Position numbers and translations under genes: made by a program. A stretch of 44,694 nt of DNA, taken from a virus. The stretch is taken from positions 1-44,694 of the IMG/VR virus record IMGVR_UViG_3300044622_000127, one strand, 5' to 3'. This document shows, piece after piece, positions 20,239 through 33,479 of the stretch. Below the pieces are notes generated by a model. That model did no database searches and was not told the DNA's origin. It saw only the letters and a list, made by a program, of their open reading frames with translations. Every line of letters begins with the position of its first letter. Within the stretch, counting starts at the first letter, position 1.

Positions 20239-21252
20239 ATGGCAAACCTATTTAAGAAAGCAATTATATTCACGGATCTACACCTCGGACTAAAATCAAA
20301 CAGCCAAGTCCATAACGAAGACTGCTTAAACTTTGTTAAATGGGCAATCGAAACGGGTAAAGCAAACGGATGTGATACTTGTTTCTTCCTCGGAGATTGG
20401 CATAACAACAGGGCAAGCATTAACTTAGTCACTTTAGACTACAGTATCCAAGCCCTAGAGCTAATGTCACAAGCGTTCCAGGTGTTCTTCATCCCAGGCA
20501 ACCACGATCTGTATTATCGCGAGAAGCGCGACATACAGTCGGCTGAATGGGCAAAGCATATTCCAAACATCCGCATTGTAAATGAGTTTTTTAAAGAAGG
20601 TGATGTTTCTATCATACCGTGGCTTGTTAAAGACGAGCATAAAAAAATTGAAAGACTACAATCTAAATATTGCTTTGGTCATTTAGAACTCCCACACTTC
20701 TATATGAATGGGATGGTCGCAATGCCGGATCATGGAGAAATTCAGCAAGACCATTTTAAGAATATCGAAAACGTGTACAGTGGCCACTTCCACAAGCGAC
20801 AGCACGGTAAGAACATAACTTACATTGGTAACTGCTTCCCGCACAACTACAGCGACGTAGGGGACGACGAGCGCGGCTGTATGATTTTAGAATGGGGCGG
20901 CAAGGAAGAATTCTTTACTTGGCCAGGGCAACCACGCTATCGTGTGTACAACCTAAGCCATGTTATCAACAATGCCGAGGCTATTCTCAAACCTAACATG
21001 CATGTCCGTGTTAATCTTGACATTGACATTAGCTACGAAGAAGCAACCTTCATTAAAGAAACATTTCAGGACACGTATAAGCTACGAGAGATTACGCTAT
21101 TACCAGTTAAGAAGGAATACGACGGGGCACAAGTTGAACCCGGATCTATCTCTTTCTTATCTGTTGATCAAATTGTAAGTGATCAAATCTCTACTATTAG
21201 CAGCGACCACTATGATCCTAAACTGTTGCTTGACATCTATCGGAACCTATGA
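20239..21252 (+). CDS. 47: Recombination exonuclease subunit gp47 (Mre11/SbcD type)
   Basis: The 337-residue protein shows the calcineurin-like phosphoesterase motifs of gp47/SbcD: FTDLHLG at residues 11-17, FLGDWHN at 50-56, PGNHD at 85-89 and GHFHKRQ near residue 180. The Asp and His residues bind the two catalytic metals. With gp46 it forms the nuclease that resects double-strand ends for recombination-dependent replication. Its length is close to T4 gp47 (339). In most T4-like phages gene 46 follows directly; here the stop overlaps an ATG that opens a remnant of gene 46, and an HNH endonuclease gene is inserted before the intact gene 46. Confidence 0.95.
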   Translation: MANLFKKAIIFTDLHLGLKSNSQVHNEDCLNFVKWAIETGKANGCDTCFFLGDWHNNRASINLVTLDYSIQALELMSQAFQVFFIPGNHDLYYREKRDIQSAEWAKHIPNIRIVNEFFKEGDVSIIPWLVKDEHKKIERLQSKYCFGHLELPHFYMNGMVAMPDHGEIQQDHFKNIENVYSGHFHKRQHGKNITYIGNCFPHNYSDVGDDERGCMILEWGGKEEFFTWPGQPRYRVYNLSHVINNAEAILKPNMHVRVNLDIDISYEEATFIKETFQDTYKLREITLLPVKKEYDGAQVEPGSISFLSVDQIVSDQISTISSDHYDPKLLLDIYRNL

Positions 21253-21293
21253 CATTCCGCATAAAAAATCTAACAGTTAAGCGCGTGGCATAA
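21249..21293 (+). pseudogene. Remnant of the original gene 46 start
   Basis: An ATG overlapping the gp47 stop (ATGA) opens 14 codons, MTFRIKNLTVKRVA, before TAA. The segment FRIKNLT-x-K matches the start of intact gp46, MFRIKNLTCKNF, at eight of nine positions. At DNA level the two copies differ in almost every synonymous position (TTC/TTT, CGC/AGA, ATA/ATC, AAA/AAG, AAT/AAC, CTA/CTT). The ancestral 47-46 junction was probably here, and the HNH gene separated it from the present gene 46. Confidence 0.7.
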
Positions 21294-21296
21294 ATA
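21289..21296 (+). promoter_or_regulatory. Late promoter for the HNH endonuclease gene
   Basis: CATAAATA followed by CT overlaps the stop of the gene 46 remnant. The AAGGAG ribosome site of the endonuclease starts at 21303. The inserted gene therefore appears to bring its own late promoter into an otherwise early/middle block, and may add late expression of gene 46. Confidence 0.6.
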
Positions 21297-21313
21297 CTCT
21301 GTAAGGAGAATTT

Positions 21314-21910
21314 ATGGCTAAGAAAAGAATATTTACAGAAGATGAAATAAAATTGATAGCAGATCCGCAATTATCATTGACTAAGCTAATGGAATTACTT
21401 AACGCTTCTATGCCGACTGTCGGTAAAATAAGGAAATCCTTAGGAGTGACAACAATTAGGGGCAGGAGAGAGGGGGTGTTAGTTCCAGGGCAAAGACGAA
21501 CTACTCATCACATTTGCCAAAACCCAGCATGCCAAAAAGAAATAGTTTCAATTCGCTCAAACCCACGAAAATACTGTTGTCATTCATGCCAGCAAAAAAC
21601 TGCTAATGTAGCAGCAAAAGGAAAAGGGACAAGGAAACTTCGCAACCCAAATACTCCAGAATATAAGAGGTATTCAAGGCTAGTTCACGGGATGAGTCAA
21701 GAAGTGTATAACGAAAACATAGATATTATTAACCCAGAGCGTCATCCACGAACACTATGCGGTGTAGAAGGCGGATGGCAATTAGATCATATTATTCCGA
21801 TTAAGGAGTGCTTTGATCGAGGAATACCACCAAGAGAAGCAGCATCACTAACTAATCTTAGAATGTTACCATGGAAAGAGAACCTTATGAGGCAATACAA
21901 GAATGTTTAG
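21314..21910 (+). CDS. Free-standing HNH homing endonuclease
   Basis: The 198-residue protein begins with a helix-turn-helix-like segment (about residues 8-45, LTKLMELLNASMPTVGKIRK). A Cys cluster follows (CQNPACQK then KYCCHSCQQK, about residues 68-92), likely zinc-binding. The C-terminal HNH core is WQLDHIIPIKECFDRG with NLRMLPWKENL; the HII histidine is the probable general base and the Asn belongs to the second motif. Such enzymes cut a phage lacking the insertion, and repair copies the gene in. It sits between genes 47 and 46, with its own AAGGAG and late promoter box. Its last codons overlap the gene 46 start: AATGTTTAG holds both the ATG and the endonuclease stop. Confidence 0.88.
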   Translation: MAKKRIFTEDEIKLIADPQLSLTKLMELLNASMPTVGKIRKSLGVTTIRGRREGVLVPGQRRTTHHICQNPACQKEIVSIRSNPRKYCCHSCQQKTANVAAKGKGTRKLRNPNTPEYKRYSRLVHGMSQEVYNENIDIINPERHPRTLCGVEGGWQLDHIIPIKECFDRGIPPREAASLTNLRMLPWKENLMRQYKNV

Positions 21911-23678
21911 AATCAAGAACCTTACATGTAAAAACTTCATGTCGGTCGGTAACTCTACGCAGGCAATCAATTTTGATAGACAAGACCTTACCTTGGTTTT
22001 AGGAGAGAACCTCGACTTAGGCGGTGATGACCACGGCGCAAGAAACGGTACTGGTAAGACTACTATATGTAATGCTTTGTCGTATGCGTTTTACGGGCAG
22101 GCACTAACAAATATCAAGAAAGATAACCTCATTAATAAGACTAATGCCAAAGGCATGTTGGTCACTATTGACTTTGAGAAAGACGGAATTACATATCGCA
22201 TTGAACGCGGGCGTCGACCTGGCGTCCTTACGTTGTATAAGGGAGACACAGCATTCGCTACTGAAGATAACGATGCTCAAGGAGACAGCAGAGAGACGCA
22301 AGGCGAGATTGATCGCATTCTGCTTATGTCACACGATATGTTTAGGCACGTTGTTGCTCTAAACACGTACACAGAGCCATTCCTTAGCTTAAAGGCTAAC
22401 GACCAACGAACCATCATTGAGCAGCTACTCGGTATTACAATGCTTAGTGAGAAAGCAGAGCTGCTTAAAGAAGCCATTCGCATTTCTAAAGAAACAATCA
22501 CAAGTGAAGAATACCGCATCAAGGCCGAATCCGAAGCAAATAAAAAGATCGAAGAGCAGTTAGACTCACTGAAGCGCAGGCAAGTTCAGTGGGACGCTAA
22601 ACATACGCAAGAGGTAGAAAAGCTAACTACAGAGTTAGAAGACCTGCTAACGCTTGATGTTGCTACCGAACTCCGATCACACGAATTACTTAAAGAGTAT
22701 AAGGCAAACGAAAAAGCCTTGCTTGATCTAACAGCAGAGTTTAACCGAACAACAACCGATCGAACACGCGAGCACAATGCCGCTAACAAAATTACTAAAG
22801 AACTTCGCGAGCTTGCTGCTAACGTATGCCACTCTTGCGGACAGGAATTTCACGGTGAAAAGCACGAGGCATTAGTCTCTGCTAAAAAAGTATCACTAAC
22901 ACACCACGAAACAGAAGTGAGTGAGATTGATCTCGTCCAAGCAGATCTTAAGACTGCTATTGCTGAAGTGCGAGGAATGATTGGCAAGAGGCCAACTACA
23001 TACTACGACAGGGTAGGCGATGCTCACAACCACAAAACGTCTATTGACCACACTCGTCACCTTCTCGAAGTAAAGATAGCAGAAGAGAATCCATACACTG
23101 AACAAGTAGCAGAAATGGAAGCATCGGCTATCTCAGAGATTGACTACAGCCTTATTAACTCCACTACAAAGATTAAAGAGCACCAAGAGTTCCTGCTCAA
23201 GTTACTTACTAACAAAGACAGTTTTATTCGTAAGCGTATCATTGACCAGAACCTAACATACTTAAATGCTCGCTTGTCCTATTATCTGGATAAGATCGGG
23301 TTGCCTCATACTGTAGTATTCCAAAGCGATCTGAGTGTTAGCATTGAAGAACTCGGTCGTGAGCTTGATTTCGACAATCTGAGCAGAGGCGAGCGCGGCA
23401 GACTAATCCTTTCCTTATCTTGGGCGTTCCGCGATGTTTGGGAATCGCTGTATGAGCCAGTTAACCTACTGTTCATTGACGAACTGATCGACAATGGTCT
23501 TGACACTAGTGGTGTTGAAAGTGCGATGGGCATCTTAAAGAAGATGGCTCGTGATGGGCACAAGAGCGTCTGGTTAGTGTCGCACAAAGACGAGCTAACC
23601 TCTCGTGTTGGTAACATCCTAAGCGTAGTTAAAGAAAGTGGCTTTACAAGCTACAACAACGATATGGAAGCTGTATGA
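21903..23678 (+). CDS. 46: Recombination ATPase subunit gp46 (Rad50/SbcC type)
   Basis: The 591-residue protein has a Walker A GARNGTGKTT (45-54), a coiled coil interrupted by the zinc-hook pair CHSC (309-312), an ABC signature LSRGERGR (from 493) and Walker B LLFIDEL (Asp526, Glu527). It is the SMC-like ATPase partner of gp47, holding and resecting DNA ends. T4 gp46 is 560 residues, so the protein is complete. The ATG at 21903 lies inside the end of the HNH gene in another frame. There is no strong ribosome site, so translation probably depends on reading of the endonuclease gene. The stop overlaps the first radical SAM gene (ATGATG). Confidence 0.95.
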   Translation: MFRIKNLTCKNFMSVGNSTQAINFDRQDLTLVLGENLDLGGDDHGARNGTGKTTICNALSYAFYGQALTNIKKDNLINKTNAKGMLVTIDFEKDGITYRIERGRRPGVLTLYKGDTAFATEDNDAQGDSRETQGEIDRILLMSHDMFRHVVALNTYTEPFLSLKANDQRTIIEQLLGITMLSEKAELLKEAIRISKETITSEEYRIKAESEANKKIEEQLDSLKRRQVQWDAKHTQEVEKLTTELEDLLTLDVATELRSHELLKEYKANEKALLDLTAEFNRTTTDRTREHNAANKITKELRELAANVCHSCGQEFHGEKHEALVSAKKVSLTHHETEVSEIDLVQADLKTAIAEVRGMIGKRPTTYYDRVGDAHNHKTSIDHTRHLLEVKIAEENPYTEQVAEMEASAISEIDYSLINSTTKIKEHQEFLLKLLTNKDSFIRKRIIDQNLTYLNARLSYYLDKIGLPHTVVFQSDLSVSIEELGRELDFDNLSRGERGRLILSLSWAFRDVWESLYEPVNLLFIDELIDNGLDTSGVESAMGILKKMARDGHKSVWLVSHKDELTSRVGNILSVVKESGFTSYNNDMEAV

Positions 23679-24610
23679 TGTTTAAGCTTGAGAAGGTTAA
23701 AGTTCTCCATTTAGAACCTACTACTACCTGTCAGGCTGCTTGCCCGCAGTGTTCGAGAACTATCTATAAATCTAACTTAGTCCCAGCGGAATTAAAGTTA
23801 CATAACATTCAGGCGTTGCTACCAGAAAAGTTTATCAAGCAACTAGACAAGATGTTTATGTGCGGTAACTTTGGAGACCCGGCTGCTGCAAGAGATACGT
23901 TAGAAATATTCAAATGGTTTAAAGCAGTCAACCCATCTATTACATTAGGTATGAATACCAATGGTGGAATCCGTCACGCTAGCTGGTGGGCGGACCTAGC
24001 AGCAGTCTTAACTTCTCCTACAGACTATGTTGTTTTTAGTATTGACGGATTAGAAGATACTAATCACATTTATCGCATAGGTGTAAACTGGGATAATATC
24101 ATGACTAACTCTGCTAGCTTTATCAATCGCGGCGGAAATGCTCACTGGGATATGTTAGTTTACAAGCATAACGAACACCAAGTAAGTGAATGTACCGAGT
24201 TAGCGAAATCTTTAGGGTTTAAATGGTTTAGGTCAAAAGTAACAAGACGTTTAATAAATGTAGATTTCTTAGAACTCCCGTCAAATACAAAAATTAATAA
24301 TGTAGTTAAAGGTAAGATTAACTGCCATGCATTAAATGAAAAAAGTGTTTTATTAAATGCACAAGGAAAGCTTCTTCCTTGCTGTTTTATCAATGACCTA
24401 ACCGCCCGATCAGATTTCGAAATAAAATCAACGCTAGTTCTAAATAACTTAGACTTATTTCAACACAGCCTCAATGAGGTTATCTCAACCTTCTCGGTTA
24501 TTACTGATACTTGGTCAGACTCAGTACCATACTCTGAATGTTCTAAGACTTGTTCGACCCAAGCATTTACTAACCAATGGAAGACTGAAATTTGTTTAAC
24601 TACGAATTAA
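23675..24610 (+). CDS. Radical SAM protein 1 with SPASM-like C-terminal cysteines
   Basis: The 311-residue protein has the radical SAM motif CQAACPQC (Cys19, Cys23, Cys26), which binds a 4Fe-4S cluster that cleaves S-adenosylmethionine. CGNFGDP, MNTNGGIRH and FSIDGLEDTNHIYR fit the family barrel. The C-terminal third has more cysteines (INCHAL, LLPCCFIND, YSECSKTCS), arranged like an auxiliary-cluster (SPASM or twitch) domain. Such proteins often modify peptides, but nucleoside or sugar substrates are possible. It overlaps gp46 by 4 bases, and the next gene, its paralogue, overlaps it by 19 bases. The substrate cannot be told from sequence. The 5'-deoxyadenosyl radical chemistry follows from the family. 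Confidence 0.85.
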   Translation: MMFKLEKVKVLHLEPTTTCQAACPQCSRTIYKSNLVPAELKLHNIQALLPEKFIKQLDKMFMCGNFGDPAAARDTLEIFKWFKAVNPSITLGMNTNGGIRHASWWADLAAVLTSPTDYVVFSIDGLEDTNHIYRIGVNWDNIMTNSASFINRGGNAHWDMLVYKHNEHQVSECTELAKSLGFKWFRSKVTRRLINVDFLELPSNTKINNVVKGKINCHALNEKSVLLNAQGKLLPCCFINDLTARSDFEIKSTLVLNNLDLFQHSLNEVISTFSVITDTWSDSVPYSECSKTCSTQAFTNQWKTEICLTTN

Positions 24611-25710
24611 TTGACGAGTATCAGATTGAGATAACAAACTACTGTAATGCAGCTTGTCCTCAATGTCCGCGAAATAATAACGGGCAAGGTGTTAACCCGC
24701 ATCTTATACTAGAACACCTATCCAGAGATGTCATTAACAAGGCATTTCCTGTGGAATTATGTGCTAGATTACGACAAGTTTTTTTCTGTGGTAGTTATGG
24801 TGATCCTATTGTTCATCCGGAGTTCTTAGACATACTGCGAGACTTCAGATCTAAAAATCCCACATTGTGGCTATACTTTCACACAAACGGCGGAGTACAC
24901 TCTCCAGAGTATTGGACTGAAATTGCAACCATCATGAATGGGTATGGGCAAATTGATTTTGGCATCGACGGGCTTGAAGACACTAATCATTTGTACAGGA
25001 AAAATGTTAAGTGGAGTAAAGTGATAGCAAATGTAAAAGCTTTTATTGCAGCTAAAGGTAGGGCGCAATGGAACTTTATTGTGTTTGAACACAACGAACA
25101 CCAGGTCGAACAAGTTAAAGAACTCGGATACGATATGGGTTTCTTTAATGTGTTAATACGCAACACCGGCCGATTCTTTAATCATAAAACACTAGAAGAG
25201 TTACCTGAATGGCCCGTTAACGATCGGACACCATATAAACTAAAGCCGCCTGTTAATGAACAGTTTAGGAACGCTAGTATGTTGTACTTGCCAAAATTAA
25301 AAGAACAGTATTCCGATATCTACGATTATTTTAGCACCACTGATATAAGATGTGATGCCTTAGCTGGTAAGAAAGTAGCCATTAATGCTAACGGTCTTGT
25401 TTTGCCGTGCAATTTCTTTAATCATAACTTATACGATGAACGATACTATAAAGACAATGTGTTACCGTGTGCAAACGAGTTGAGTAACATTAACGGTAAA
25501 AATCAGGTTAGAGAATTTTTAGAATCTTACGGTCTTAGCAATCTAAACATTAAAAATTATTCGTTAGCTGAGATTTTTCAAAACCCGATGTGGAGTGACT
25601 TAGTAGCAAGTTTTCACAAACCACTTGGAGAAGGCCGTATATTCGAATGCTCGATGACATGCGGATCAAAATTAAAAAAAGTTTGGGATCAAGGAGGATC
25701 TAAAATATGA
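24592..25710 (+). CDS. Radical SAM protein 2, paralogue of the preceding gene
   Basis: The 372-residue protein has CNAACPQC (Cys18, Cys22, Cys25). It shares FCGSYGDP, FHTNGGVHSPEYW, GIDGLEDTNHLYR and EHNEHQVEQVKEL with the preceding protein (CGNFGDP, SIDGLEDTNHIYR, KHNEHQVSECTEL), so the two arose by duplication. The C-terminal auxiliary-cluster cysteines are also kept (IRCDAL, VLPCNFFNHN, FECSMTCGSK). It has about 60 extra residues between the barrel and the C-terminal domain. The start is TTG at 24592 with TGGAAG upstream; no ATG fits the conserved N-terminus. The stop overlaps the dehydrogenase start (ATGA). The two may act as a pair or on related substrates; this is inference. Confidence 0.85.
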   Translation: MFNYELIDEYQIEITNYCNAACPQCPRNNNGQGVNPHLILEHLSRDVINKAFPVELCARLRQVFFCGSYGDPIVHPEFLDILRDFRSKNPTLWLYFHTNGGVHSPEYWTEIATIMNGYGQIDFGIDGLEDTNHLYRKNVKWSKVIANVKAFIAAKGRAQWNFIVFEHNEHQVEQVKELGYDMGFFNVLIRNTGRFFNHKTLEELPEWPVNDRTPYKLKPPVNEQFRNASMLYLPKLKEQYSDIYDYFSTTDIRCDALAGKKVAINANGLVLPCNFFNHNLYDERYYKDNVLPCANELSNINGKNQVREFLESYGLSNLNIKNYSLAEIFQNPMWSDLVASFHKPLGEGRIFECSMTCGSKLKKVWDQGGSKI

Positions 25711-31132: not shown

Positions 31133-31140
31133 TATAAATA
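31133..31140 (+). promoter_or_regulatory. Late promoter upstream of the GIY-YIG gene and portal
   Basis: A perfect TATAAATA followed by CTAGAATG. It starts five bases after the tape measure stop and precedes the AAGGAG site of the endonuclease. It probably served gene 20 before the endonuclease arrived and now drives both. Confidence 0.7.
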
Positions 31141-31173
31141 CTAGAATGACTAAACAATCAAGGAGCAACTAAA

Positions 31174-31752
31174 ATTTCACCAGACAACAAAACCTATTAT
31201 GTTTACCAATATCTCAGAGAAGACGGAACTCCGTATTATATTGGCAAAGGAACAGGTAAAAGGATAAAAGAGAAACATAAATGTATTGTTCCTTCAGAAG
31301 AATATAGGCAAATTATCCAGCACGGTCTGACTCATCAGGAAGCTCTTGATATTGAAGTGGAGTTGATTAAAAAATATGGACGAATTATCGACGGTGGAAT
31401 CTTAGAAAATATAAAAGTAAATAGATGGGCTTGTAATCCCGGATGGCACCACTCAGAAGAGACTAAAAATAGGATATCAAAAGCAAAAATGGGCGTTAAG
31501 AAATCTGAGGAAACTAAGAAAAAAATGCGCCAAGCACAGTTATTACAGTCTGACGAAACGAAAGAAAAGATACGTAACACTTTAACTGGTATTAAGCATT
31601 CTGAAGAACGCATAGAGAAAAATAGACAAAGCGCATTACGACCAGAAGTTAAGGAAGCTAAGAGACAGAAGATGTTAGATGTAATAGCTACTAAAAAACT
31701 TGCCGGGTTAGGTTGGGGACGCGGAAAGAAAAATAAAGGAATTATACTTTGA
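31174..31752 (+). CDS. GIY-YIG homing endonuclease with NUMOD3 repeats, apparent ATT start
   Basis: The frame encodes about 192 residues. YYVYQYLREDGTPYYIGKGT near the N-terminus is the GIY-YIG nuclease motif, and the Glu in ALDIEVELIKKYG is the likely metal-binding residue. Four NUMOD3-type DNA-binding repeats follow: HSEETKNRISKAKMG, KSEETKKKMRQAQ, SDETKEKIRNTLTG and HSEERIEKNRQSA. The frame is open from TGA at 31147 but has no ATG, GTG or TTG before the nuclease motif. AAGGAG (31160-31165) sits eight bases before ATT at 31174, which would begin I/M-SPDNKTYYVYQ. So the start is either a rare ATT or a mutated ATG. A GTG at 31357 would lose the nuclease domain. It lies between the tape measure and portal genes and overlaps the portal start by 4 bases. 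Confidence 0.8.
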   Translation: MSPDNKTYYVYQYLREDGTPYYIGKGTGKRIKEKHKCIVPSEEYRQIIQHGLTHQEALDIEVELIKKYGRIIDGGILENIKVNRWACNPGWHHSEETKNRISKAKMGVKKSEETKKKMRQAQLLQSDETKEKIRNTLTGIKHSEERIEKNRQSALRPEVKEAKRQKMLDVIATKKLAGLGWGRGKKNKGIIL

Positions 31753-33479
31753 GCTGGAGAAAACACTTTAAAACCGCAAACATAAGCGGAAACATGAGCC
31801 CAATGAGTATGACAGATGTGTCTACCTCGTTCGGCATGAAGAATTATCAAAGCACTTTGCCTGATGTTTACGTTGGTCACCCAAACCGTATTGAGCGTTA
31901 CAACCAATACGAGCAAATGGATGCTGATAGCGAAGTTAATGCTGCGCTAGACATTCTAGCAGAATTCTCAACACAACCAAACATTGAAAACGGGACAGCG
32001 TTTGATATTAAGTTCAATGAAACACCAACTGACAACGAAATTAAGATCATTAAAGAGCAGCTCCAGCAATGGTGTAAGCTAAACGAGTTTGACAAGCGTA
32101 TCTTTAAAGTGTTTCGCAATACAATCAAGTATGGTGATCAGGTTTTTATCCGCGACCCAGAAAACTTTAAGTTGCTGTGGTCTGAGATGTCTAAGGTTAC
32201 AAAAGTTATCGTCAATGAATCAGACGGTAAGAAGCCAGAGCAGTATGTTCTTAAAGACATTAACCCAAATTTACAAAACCTAACAGTTACCGCAGTAACT
32301 ACCTCCGACACTTACACTAACAATCCGGTAACTGCTGGAACCGCAGGAGCGTTTAGCGCCACTAGTGGTGGAGGCGGCGGATCCACTGGATCGAGATTTA
32401 GCAATGCTAAAAACGAATCAGTCATTGACGCTGAACACATACTACACATCAGTTTAACTGAAGGATTAGATGCTTCTTGGCCTTTTGGTACGTCAGTGCT
32501 CGAAACAATCTTCAAGGTCTATAAGCAAAAAGAATTGCTCGAAGATGCTGTTATTATCTACCGTGTTCAAAGAGCACCAGAACGTCGTATGTTCAAGATC
32601 GATGTAGGTAACATGCCAACTCACTTAGCTATGGCATTCGTTGAGCGTGTTAAAAACGAAGTCCACCAACGTAGAATACCGTCGGTGTCTGGTACAGGCG
32701 GCAATATGGTTGATTCAGCGTACAATCCGTTATCAATGAACGAAGACTTTTTCTTCCCACAAACTGCTGAAGGCCGCGGATCAAGTGTTGAGGTATTACC
32801 AGGCGGTGCCAACTTAGGTGAGATTACTGACTTACGCTTCTTCACTAACAAGATGTTCCGTGGATTGCGTATTCCTTCTAGCTACTTACCTACACAGCTT
32901 GAAGAGTCTCCAAACTCTTACGGCGACGGAAAATCTACTACAGCACTAATCCAAGACTGGAGATTTAACCAGTATTGTATGCGACTTCAAAACCTCATTG
33001 TAGCAGCATTAGATAAAGAGTTCAAGTTGTTTATGCGATTCCGTGGTATAAACATTGACTCTAGCGTGTTTGATTTACGTTTTAACGAGCCACAAAACTT
33101 CTCAAAATATCGCCAGATTGATTTAGACCAAGCAAGGATTAGTTCATTTACACAAGTCGAAGGTTTCCCTTACATGTCTAAACGTTTCATTATGGAACGA
33201 TACTTAGGACTGAGTGAAGAAGAGATGCAGAAGAATGAAGAGATGTGGGCAGAAGAACATGCTGAGACAGAACTAAGCAAACCAGAAGATCCTAACTTGC
33301 GAGCAGTTGGCGTATCGTCTGGTGGCTTAGGTGCCGACATTGAAAACGTTACACCAATGCCAGAGGAAGGTGCCGATATGGGAACAGAAGCAGGAGCCGA
33401 AGCAGGCGCAGGAGCACCAGCACCAGGCGGCGCACCAGCACCAGGCGGCGCACCAGCACCAGGCGGCGCAGGACTATAA
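31749..33479 (+). CDS. 20: Portal vertex protein gp20
   Basis: The 576-residue protein is clearly gp20: QYEQMDADSEVNAALDILAE near residue 52, then FRNTIKYGDQVFIRD, RVQRAPERRMFKIDVGNMP and PQTAEGRGSSVEVLPGG. Twelve copies form the portal ring through which DNA is packed. T4 gp20 is 524 residues. Additions here are a Gly-rich loop (near residue 205) and an Ala/Gly/Pro tail with three exact GAPAPG repeats. The start is TTG at 31749, inside the end of the homing endonuclease gene, with AAGGA (31736-31740) eight bases before it. No ATG fits, so the endonuclease insertion may have cost the original start. Confidence 0.95.
   Translation: MSWRKHFKTANISGNMSPMSMTDVSTSFGMKNYQSTLPDVYVGHPNRIERYNQYEQMDADSEVNAALDILAEFSTQPNIENGTAFDIKFNETPTDNEIKIIKEQLQQWCKLNEFDKRIFKVFRNTIKYGDQVFIRDPENFKLLWSEMSKVTKVIVNESDGKKPEQYVLKDINPNLQNLTVTAVTTSDTYTNNPVTAGTAGAFSATSGGGGGSTGSRFSNAKNESVIDAEHILHISLTEGLDASWPFGTSVLETIFKVYKQKELLEDAVIIYRVQRAPERRMFKIDVGNMPTHLAMAFVERVKNEVHQRRIPSVSGTGGNMVDSAYNPLSMNEDFFFPQTAEGRGSSVEVLPGGANLGEITDLRFFTNKMFRGLRIPSSYLPTQLEESPNSYGDGKSTTALIQDWRFNQYCMRLQNLIVAALDKEFKLFMRFRGINIDSSVFDLRFNEPQNFSKYRQIDLDQARISSFTQVEGFPYMSKRFIMERYLGLSEEEMQKNEEMWAEEHAETELSKPEDPNLRAVGVSSGGLGADIENVTPMPEEGADMGTEAGAEAGAGAPAPGGAPAPGGAPAPGGAGL
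33414..33467 (+). repeat. Three exact 18-base tandem repeats at the portal C-terminus
   Basis: The unit GCACCAGCACCAGGCGGC occurs three times in a row (33414-33431, 33432-33449, 33450-33467) and encodes APAPGG units. Exact copies point to recent slippage in a flexible tail. Confidence 0.9.

Follow-up and report, generated by a model that had tools for sequence, protein, structure and literature searches.

How can a gene for a DNA-cutting enzyme settle between two phage genes that overlap, and why is the beginning of the second of these genes found twice, once before the inserted gene and once at its end? The question is raised by genes 47 and 46 of a T4-like phage, IMG/VR record IMGVR_UViG_3300044622_000127, positions 1-44,694 (hereafter the window, that is, the whole stretch of 44,694 nucleotides that was analysed), between which lies a gene for an HNH-type protein. 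We propose, with a probability of roughly 0.8, that this gene belongs to a free-standing homing endonuclease cassette which targets the conserved 5' end of gene 46, provides that gene with a replacement start and leaves the severed old start behind as a stranded remnant.

The initial annotation of the window had described a short reading frame behind gp47 as what is left of the gene 46 start, and this reading is confirmed in the sequence (Table 1). The frame comprises 14 codons and reads MTFRIKNLTVKRVA-TAA, its ATG at 21249 overlapping the gp47 TGA; over FRIKNLT-V/C-K it agrees with the N-terminus of gp46 at 8 of 9 residues. Seven of the eight shared codons nevertheless differ (remnant/gp46: TTC/TTT, CGC/AGA, ATA/ATC, AAA/AAG, AAT/AAC, CTA/CTT, AAG/AAA), and only ACA is the same. 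The part homologous to gp46 extends over the first 10-11 codons or so, the rest being cassette sequence, and the remnant outscores 200/200 shuffles with a profile of gp46 starts (p ~0.005). The working start of gp46 (ATG 21903, MFRIKNLTCKNF) lies inside the last codons of the HNH open reading frame (21314-21910), as had been described, with an 8-nt overlap, and gene 46 is a complete open reading frame from this new start, with a full N-terminus that does not need the remnant. An intron- or intein-encoded endonuclease was considered and ruled out, as gene 46 is complete from the new start and there is no host gene restored by splicing.

Table 1. Features of the gene 47/gene 46 junction in the window.
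Feature	Position	Strand	Evidence and remarks
Gene 47 homologue (SbcD/Mre11-like nuclease subunit), intact upstream neighbour	20239..21252	+	Pfam Metallophos 1.5e-6; phrog_100 2.1e-65
Proposed remnant: stranded old start of gene 46, MTFRIKNLTVKRVA and stop	21249..21293	+	ATGA overlap with the gene 47 stop
TAAATA late-promoter-like box (T4 TATAAATA type)	21291..21296	+	its own TAA doubles as the remnant stop codon
Predicted hairpin over the HNH ribosome-binding site (AGGAG 21304-21308)	21289..21316	+	5' arm includes the promoter box; minimum free energy -11.6 kcal/mol, z -2.33
HNH-type endonuclease gene, 198 aa	21314..21910	+	N-terminal helix-turn-helix; four-cysteine putative zinc site; C-terminal HNH-like motif; phrog_5104 2.5e-22
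GAGG, likely gene 46 ribosome-binding site, within HNH C-terminal codons (LMRQY)	21889..21892	+	sequence
Gene 46 homologue (SbcC/Rad50-like subunit)	21903..23678	+	phrog_77 5.1e-93; codons 1-10 are the recoded copy

The arrangement recurs among relatives. A gp46 search of IMG/VR returned 80 loci of about 59-63% identity (single loci are designated by L and a number), many of them uninterrupted, with gene 46 beginning at the gene 47 stop (by the same ATGA overlap in L016, L041 and L058), and others with unrelated genes between 47 and 46. Searching IMG/VR with the HNH alignment gave 54 loci, and a relative of gene 46 lies directly downstream in 52 of them (L127 was checked on the gene 46 side only), even where gp46 identity is only ~25%. 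The nearest locus in gp46, L102, has no gp47 on its apparently rearranged contig and was excluded from comparison. The junctions were collapsed to 100 clusters, of which 22 carry an HNH gene of the window type (type A), 14 a variant (another N-terminus or the tail only) and 64 none, and 21 type-A junctions could be scored for the remnant. At 14 of these 21 the remnant directly follows gene 47 at p<=0.01 against the gp46-start profile, as it does in L094 at p=0.025; the duplicated gene end with its displaced native part is thus seen directly at 15/21 junctions, besides L110 and L121, where a cargo gene separates gene 47 from the remnant, which lies just upstream of HNH. The break position is constant, ...I-K-x-L-T-V-x-(R/W/T) being followed by TAAATA and the HNH ribosome site, and the left edge reads ...GTTAA/YAGGTAAATA in DNA, the slash marking the edge. 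A remnant (MIQFQTLTVSSLAW) is also present in L128, the nuclease of which has a different N-terminal domain, and none is recognisable in L111, L116, L119 and L124, mostly the most distant members. A pattern scan of IMG/VR for additional remnants gave only loci that were already known. In relatives without HNH, gene 46 begins right at the stop of gene 47, and a short segment closed by a stop, looked for as the observation that would speak against an insertion, is found in none of them; the original suggestion of a homing-type endonuclease inserted at the ancestral 47-46 overlap is therefore supported.

The cassette has also been lost. L138 is a deletion derivative in which most of HNH is gone and the remnant and the HNH tail are kept; only the tail is retained in L135 and L140, and HNH tails with the gene 46 ribosome site survive in the scars of L135, L138, L142, L091, L076 and L023. 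Of 30 uninterrupted junctions searched for HNH-tail relics, 3 gave weak hits. Insertions at 47/46 are common in general: unrelated genes (radical-SAM-like, SGNH-hydrolase-like and others) occupy this hotspot in 28/64 HNH-less relatives. At these 28 other-cargo junctions neither a remnant (0/28, gp46-start profile) nor an HNH-tail relic (0/28) was found, and the view that other cargo has taken the place of an earlier HNH gene was accordingly given up, with L023, L076 and L091 as exceptions.

Which of the two starts is native can be read from the uninvaded phages. In 16/18 genomes the remnant resembles uninvaded starts more closely than the working copy does (26 nt; means 0.70 vs 0.64; Wilcoxon p 3e-4), and the remnant of L099/L101 equals the intact start of L028 at 26/26 nt. 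Judged from these comparisons, it is the remnant that retains the ancestral wording and the working copy that is the recoded one; the initial annotation was right in seeing recoding and placed it in the wrong copy when it spoke of a recoded remnant. Its proposed comparison of junctions with and without HNH was made between L106, which carries the gene, and its empty sister L014. The last 360 nt of L106 gp47 are L014-like (73:6 sites), the HNH gene is 93.7% identical in DNA to that of the HNH-carrying phage L012, the remnant reads L012-like, and in gene 46 the first 40 nt are L012-like (8:0), the next 40 mixed and positions 59-139 L014-like (14:0), with a later mosaic patch. Since L106 agrees with another HNH-carrying phage in the HNH gene and for ~40 nt into gene 46, and with its sister in the flanks, the new gene 46 start, on this evidence, travels with the endonuclease, which bears out the suggestion that it had arrived with the endonuclease from a diverged phage. 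In L101, likewise, the HNH gene is 100% identical to that of L099 over 588 nt within divergent flanks, and the gene 46 start is L099-like, that is, donor-like (12:0), and beyond ~340 nt resembles the recipient-like L034. Occupied and empty alleles thus occur among near-isogenic relatives (L106/L014; L099 and L101/L028, L034 and L038), HNH status must have changed at least 9 times along well-supported branches of the gp46 tree, and L106 and L101 display both a patchy presence at a fixed site and horizontal transfer with short-flank co-conversion, as expected of homing genes. The window and L093 share 72% identity in HNH, although only 52-56% in gp47 and gp46. The claim that the ancestral junction is still visible stands as far as the wording of the remnants goes, which is nearer to uninvaded starts, and is qualified by L106, in which the remnant came with the cassette.

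The codon pair GTT-AAR at the insertion point is absent from all working copies of invaded genes and present in most uninvaded ones (0/22 vs 37/64; Fisher 4e-7). Val is spelled GTG in 10/17 invaded vs 2/61 uninvaded starts, with similar Val codon use in the gene body, and GTT, the commonest Val codon in these genes, is retained in most remnants. Invaded starts avoid GTT-AAR variously, by GTG-AAG, TGT-AAA (the window, Val to Cys), TTG-AAA, GTT-CGN, GTC-ATG or GTA-AAR. Remnants and their own working copies are identical at 39/91 codons, compared with 54% between remnants and uninvaded starts and 57% among uninvaded starts, a modest excess of difference. The loss of GTT-AAR fits protection from cutting, a reading that is favoured but unproven, and avoidance of a direct repeat is a second, likewise unproven, reason for recoding. 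The initial annotation had offered transfer with the cassette and selection against cutting as alternatives; the two are compatible, and for selection the 0/22 against 37/64 speaks in favour and shared ancestry weakens the test. One uninterrupted junction, in L041, has a recoded GTG-AAG start and belongs to the same clade as the HNH-carrying L081 and the scar-bearing L023; possibly the remnant and the working start of L041 recombined, which removed the cassette and left the putatively resistant wording in place.

The encoded protein is a putative nuclease of HNH (beta-beta-alpha metal) type. Four cysteines and D158 H159, N181 and N190 (a C-terminal LDH...N...N motif) are invariant across the family, the predicted structure contains a strand-strand-helix with pLDDT (predicted per-residue confidence) > 90 over most of residues 121-190, Pfam helix-turn-helix models hit the N-terminus of several members, and the window HNH has a weak endonuclease VII match (phrog_1035, 8.9e-5). 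Its expression signals resemble those of late phage genes. Of the 26 gene starts of the window that were examined, 10 have TAAATA <=50 nt upstream, against an expectation of ~0.5 for 38 copies on 89,388 nt (both strands); the whole-window count of TAAATAC is not enriched, and only its position upstream of gene starts is. This placement fits a T4-type late promoter, and the box upstream of HNH is conserved in nearly all cassettes. A hairpin with z <= -2 is predicted in 7/12 HNH leaders, and similar ones occur in most relatives, the arms differing in sequence between phages (L012, L105, L111). Judged by sequence alone, a late-promoter box directly upstream and a hairpin over the ribosome site are thus both present, as in late-expressed homing genes of T4 type: in I-TevI, SegB and Aeh1 MobE such a hairpin covers the ribosome site and only late transcripts escape it (PMC2988022). 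The HNH tail sequence AATTTAATGAGRCAATAY with the gene 46 GAGG is conserved, also where the rest of the HNH gene has been lost, and the embedding of the gene 46 ribosome site in HNH codons parallels the embedded promoters of T4 that favour endonuclease retention (PMC2988022).

From the anatomy of the locus, its recurrence, the block exchange with short donor tracts and the loss of GTT-AAR, which the sequences display, we infer a series of interlinked steps. The target would be the beginning of gene 46, which overlaps gene 47 without any spacer between the two. Cutting of an uninvaded gene 46 by the HNH protein would fall near codons 8-10 (around ...LTV/KNFMSVG, DNA ACNGTTAA/RAA, the slash marking the putative cut), and repair from a co-infecting phage that bears the cassette would copy in the HNH gene together with the replacement 5' end of gene 46. 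The old start would be severed after about nine codons and closed by the stop codon within the TAAATA box, and gene 46 would stay whole through the new start and the ribosome-binding site in the last HNH codons. Synonymous or mild changes in the replacement codons, which remove the GTT-AAR core, would make the repaired gene no longer a target and may also keep the two copies from forming a long direct repeat. With the promoter box as its 5' arm, the hairpin would allow HNH to be translated from late transcripts only.

Several observations weigh against this proposal or parts of it. The Pfam HNH model gave no hit for any family member, and no PDB entry matched the predicted HNH structure at E<=0.001 in a fold search; the HNH label is a putative one that rests on the motif and the predicted fold. 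A phylogeny-aware test of GTT-AAR yielded only 6 well-supported independent pairs, with 0 in the opposite direction and a median p of 0.125, and GTT-AAR is also absent from some uninvaded phages; much of the Fisher signal may reflect one ancestral recoded start inherited with the cassette. The donor-like remnant of L106 implies that a remnant can travel with the cassette and need not be a fossil of the recipient itself. For the window, which lacks a near-isogenic empty relative, transfer is inferred by analogy with L106 and L101; if an empty sister phage were to carry a start matching TTCCGCATAAAAAATCTAACAGTTAA right behind gene 47, the window remnant would be the start of its own lineage. Taken alone, this remnant is short, with 9 informative residues, and could be thought a chance resemblance or an assembly artefact; that explanation is refuted by the finding of such remnants, independently, at one and the same position in many contigs and by their absence from the controls, and we give it practically no weight.

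A single old insertion at 47/46, inherited vertically and often lost, with the remnant and new start kept or deleted and little active homing, would account for the insertion point and left edge common to all cassettes, and for the deletion scars and the frequency of loss; it is improbable in view of the 100% and 93.7% identical HNH genes in the flanks of different lineages, the short donor tracts, and the resemblance of the window HNH to that of L093 across diverged neighbours. Active homing being preferred, the recoding might still be mere lineage divergence carried with the cassette, with neither self-resistance nor repeat avoidance selected. The donor tracts include the start codons, so that transfer alone yields differences between old and new copies, and these are only moderately larger than expected; the loss of GTT-AAR is complete and was reached by different routes, though GTT is the commonest Val codon, and we consider divergence alone unlikely, if a serious contender. 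Somewhat less likely still is that the remnant itself is a selected element, either a left homology arm, an operator bound by HNH beside its promoter, as in I-TevI, or a short leader peptide. Differences among the 14 distinct remnants lie mainly at third codon positions (64%), GTT or KIKNLTV has been retained in most of them despite large divergence, and in L110 and L121, with a cargo gene behind gene 47, the remnant has stayed beside HNH. The remnant also borders directly on the TAAATA box, and I-TevI represses itself from a homing-site-like operator overlapping its late promoter (PMC2988022). The same pattern would arise if remnants were renewed from functional starts at successive invasions, and the remnant is lost or unrecognisable in four loci; the third-position bias may mean either such renewal or selection as half-site, operator or peptide. 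The homing cassette with a replacement start is, with these points weighed, the reading that we retain.

The closest counterpart is found in the mobile open reading frames of fungal mitochondria, and the phage case is their mirror image at the 5' end. Mobile endonuclease reading frames replace the 3' ends of genes in Allomyces (atp6) and Glomus (atp6, atp9, cox2, nad3) (PMC3630166). There, as here, a free endonuclease gene lies within a coding sequence without intron or intein, the native part is stranded alongside, and a diverged, synonymously different replacement of the cut-off part is brought in by horizontal transfer (PMC3630166). The fungal elements replace the 3' end, and hence the C-terminus, and encode LAGLIDADG or GIY-YIG enzymes in mitochondria (PMC3630166), whereas the phage element, present in many lineages, encodes an HNH-type enzyme and supplies a new 5' end with its start codon and ribosome site; accordingly, it is the N-terminus, and not the C-terminus, that is duplicated. 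The Seg and Mob homing genes of T4 are likewise stand-alone, adjoin their targets, convert short flanks, carry late promoters and hairpins over the ribosome site, and embed signals of the downstream gene (PMC2988022). Most of them are intergenic or split the host gene in two, such as Aeh1 mobE/nrdA and T4 mobA/gene 60 (PMC2988022), in contrast to the present locus, known from sequence, in which the host gene is rebuilt with a second 5' end and the stranded remnant is kept. F-CphI of cyanophage S-PM2 is also a free-standing phage nuclease of the broad endonuclease VII/HNH kind beside a target that is uncuttable in its own genome (PMC6083498); there the protection is a psbA intron, here it would be a recoded start, and domain order and motif differ (PMC6083498). 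Distant relatives of the nuclease, with 26-38% identity, are encoded at the 18/19 junction of cultured Straboviridae (among them Providencia phage PSTRCR_121, Serratia phage 4S and Klebsiella phage Merci), directly upstream of a conserved gene; unlike the present genes they lie in intergenic DNA, and a gene 19 start remnant, looked for at these junctions, was not found. A literature search of limited coverage gave no phage case of gene-start replacement and only the mitochondrial 3'-end counterpart.

Beyond the type-A cassettes, the junction endonucleases of L085-L090 and L122-L132 have a similar catalytic C-terminus (about 57-74% identical to that of the window) and a quite different, longer N-terminal region; by this comparison the DNA-recognition part has been exchanged at a fixed site. 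In L090 (3400-4000) gene 46 seemingly holds an intein, an in-frame insert after its N-terminal segment, besides the upstream endonuclease. No relative turned up when 84,980 prokaryote genomes were scanned with the HNH alignment. Among the isolate phages nearest in gp46, Deifobo has no HNH gene at 47/46, and Phosso has two hypothetical proteins between the two genes, with no endonuclease-like product annotated. Two radical-SAM-like genes lie directly 3' of gene 46 in the window (23675-25710) and adjoin gene 46 in several relatives too. A second homing-type gene of the window (31133-31757), a GIY-YIG-like open reading frame with NUMOD3-like repeats, is preceded by TATAAATAC and AAGGAG and apparently starts with ATT; the TTG with which the portal gene starts (31749) overlaps the TGA of this frame, so that another conserved gene start is embedded in an endonuclease gene.

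T4 gp46, with gp47, is a main recombination nuclease of the phage, and a homing element in gene 46 therefore shares a repair pathway with its host gene. A further reading, less probable than not, is that the locus represents a new way of homing into phage genes that have no spare DNA between them, in which the recoded 5' end was selected to destroy the cutting site and break the direct repeat, and the remnant was kept as a half-site, a homology arm and possibly an operator beside the late promoter. The proposed cassette would explain how a selfish cutting gene settles in an essential gene that overlaps its neighbour, without splicing or splitting of the protein. Within one phage group, the occupied, empty, hybrid and deleted alleles form a readable record of homing, and resistance by synonymous recoding is therefore directly testable.

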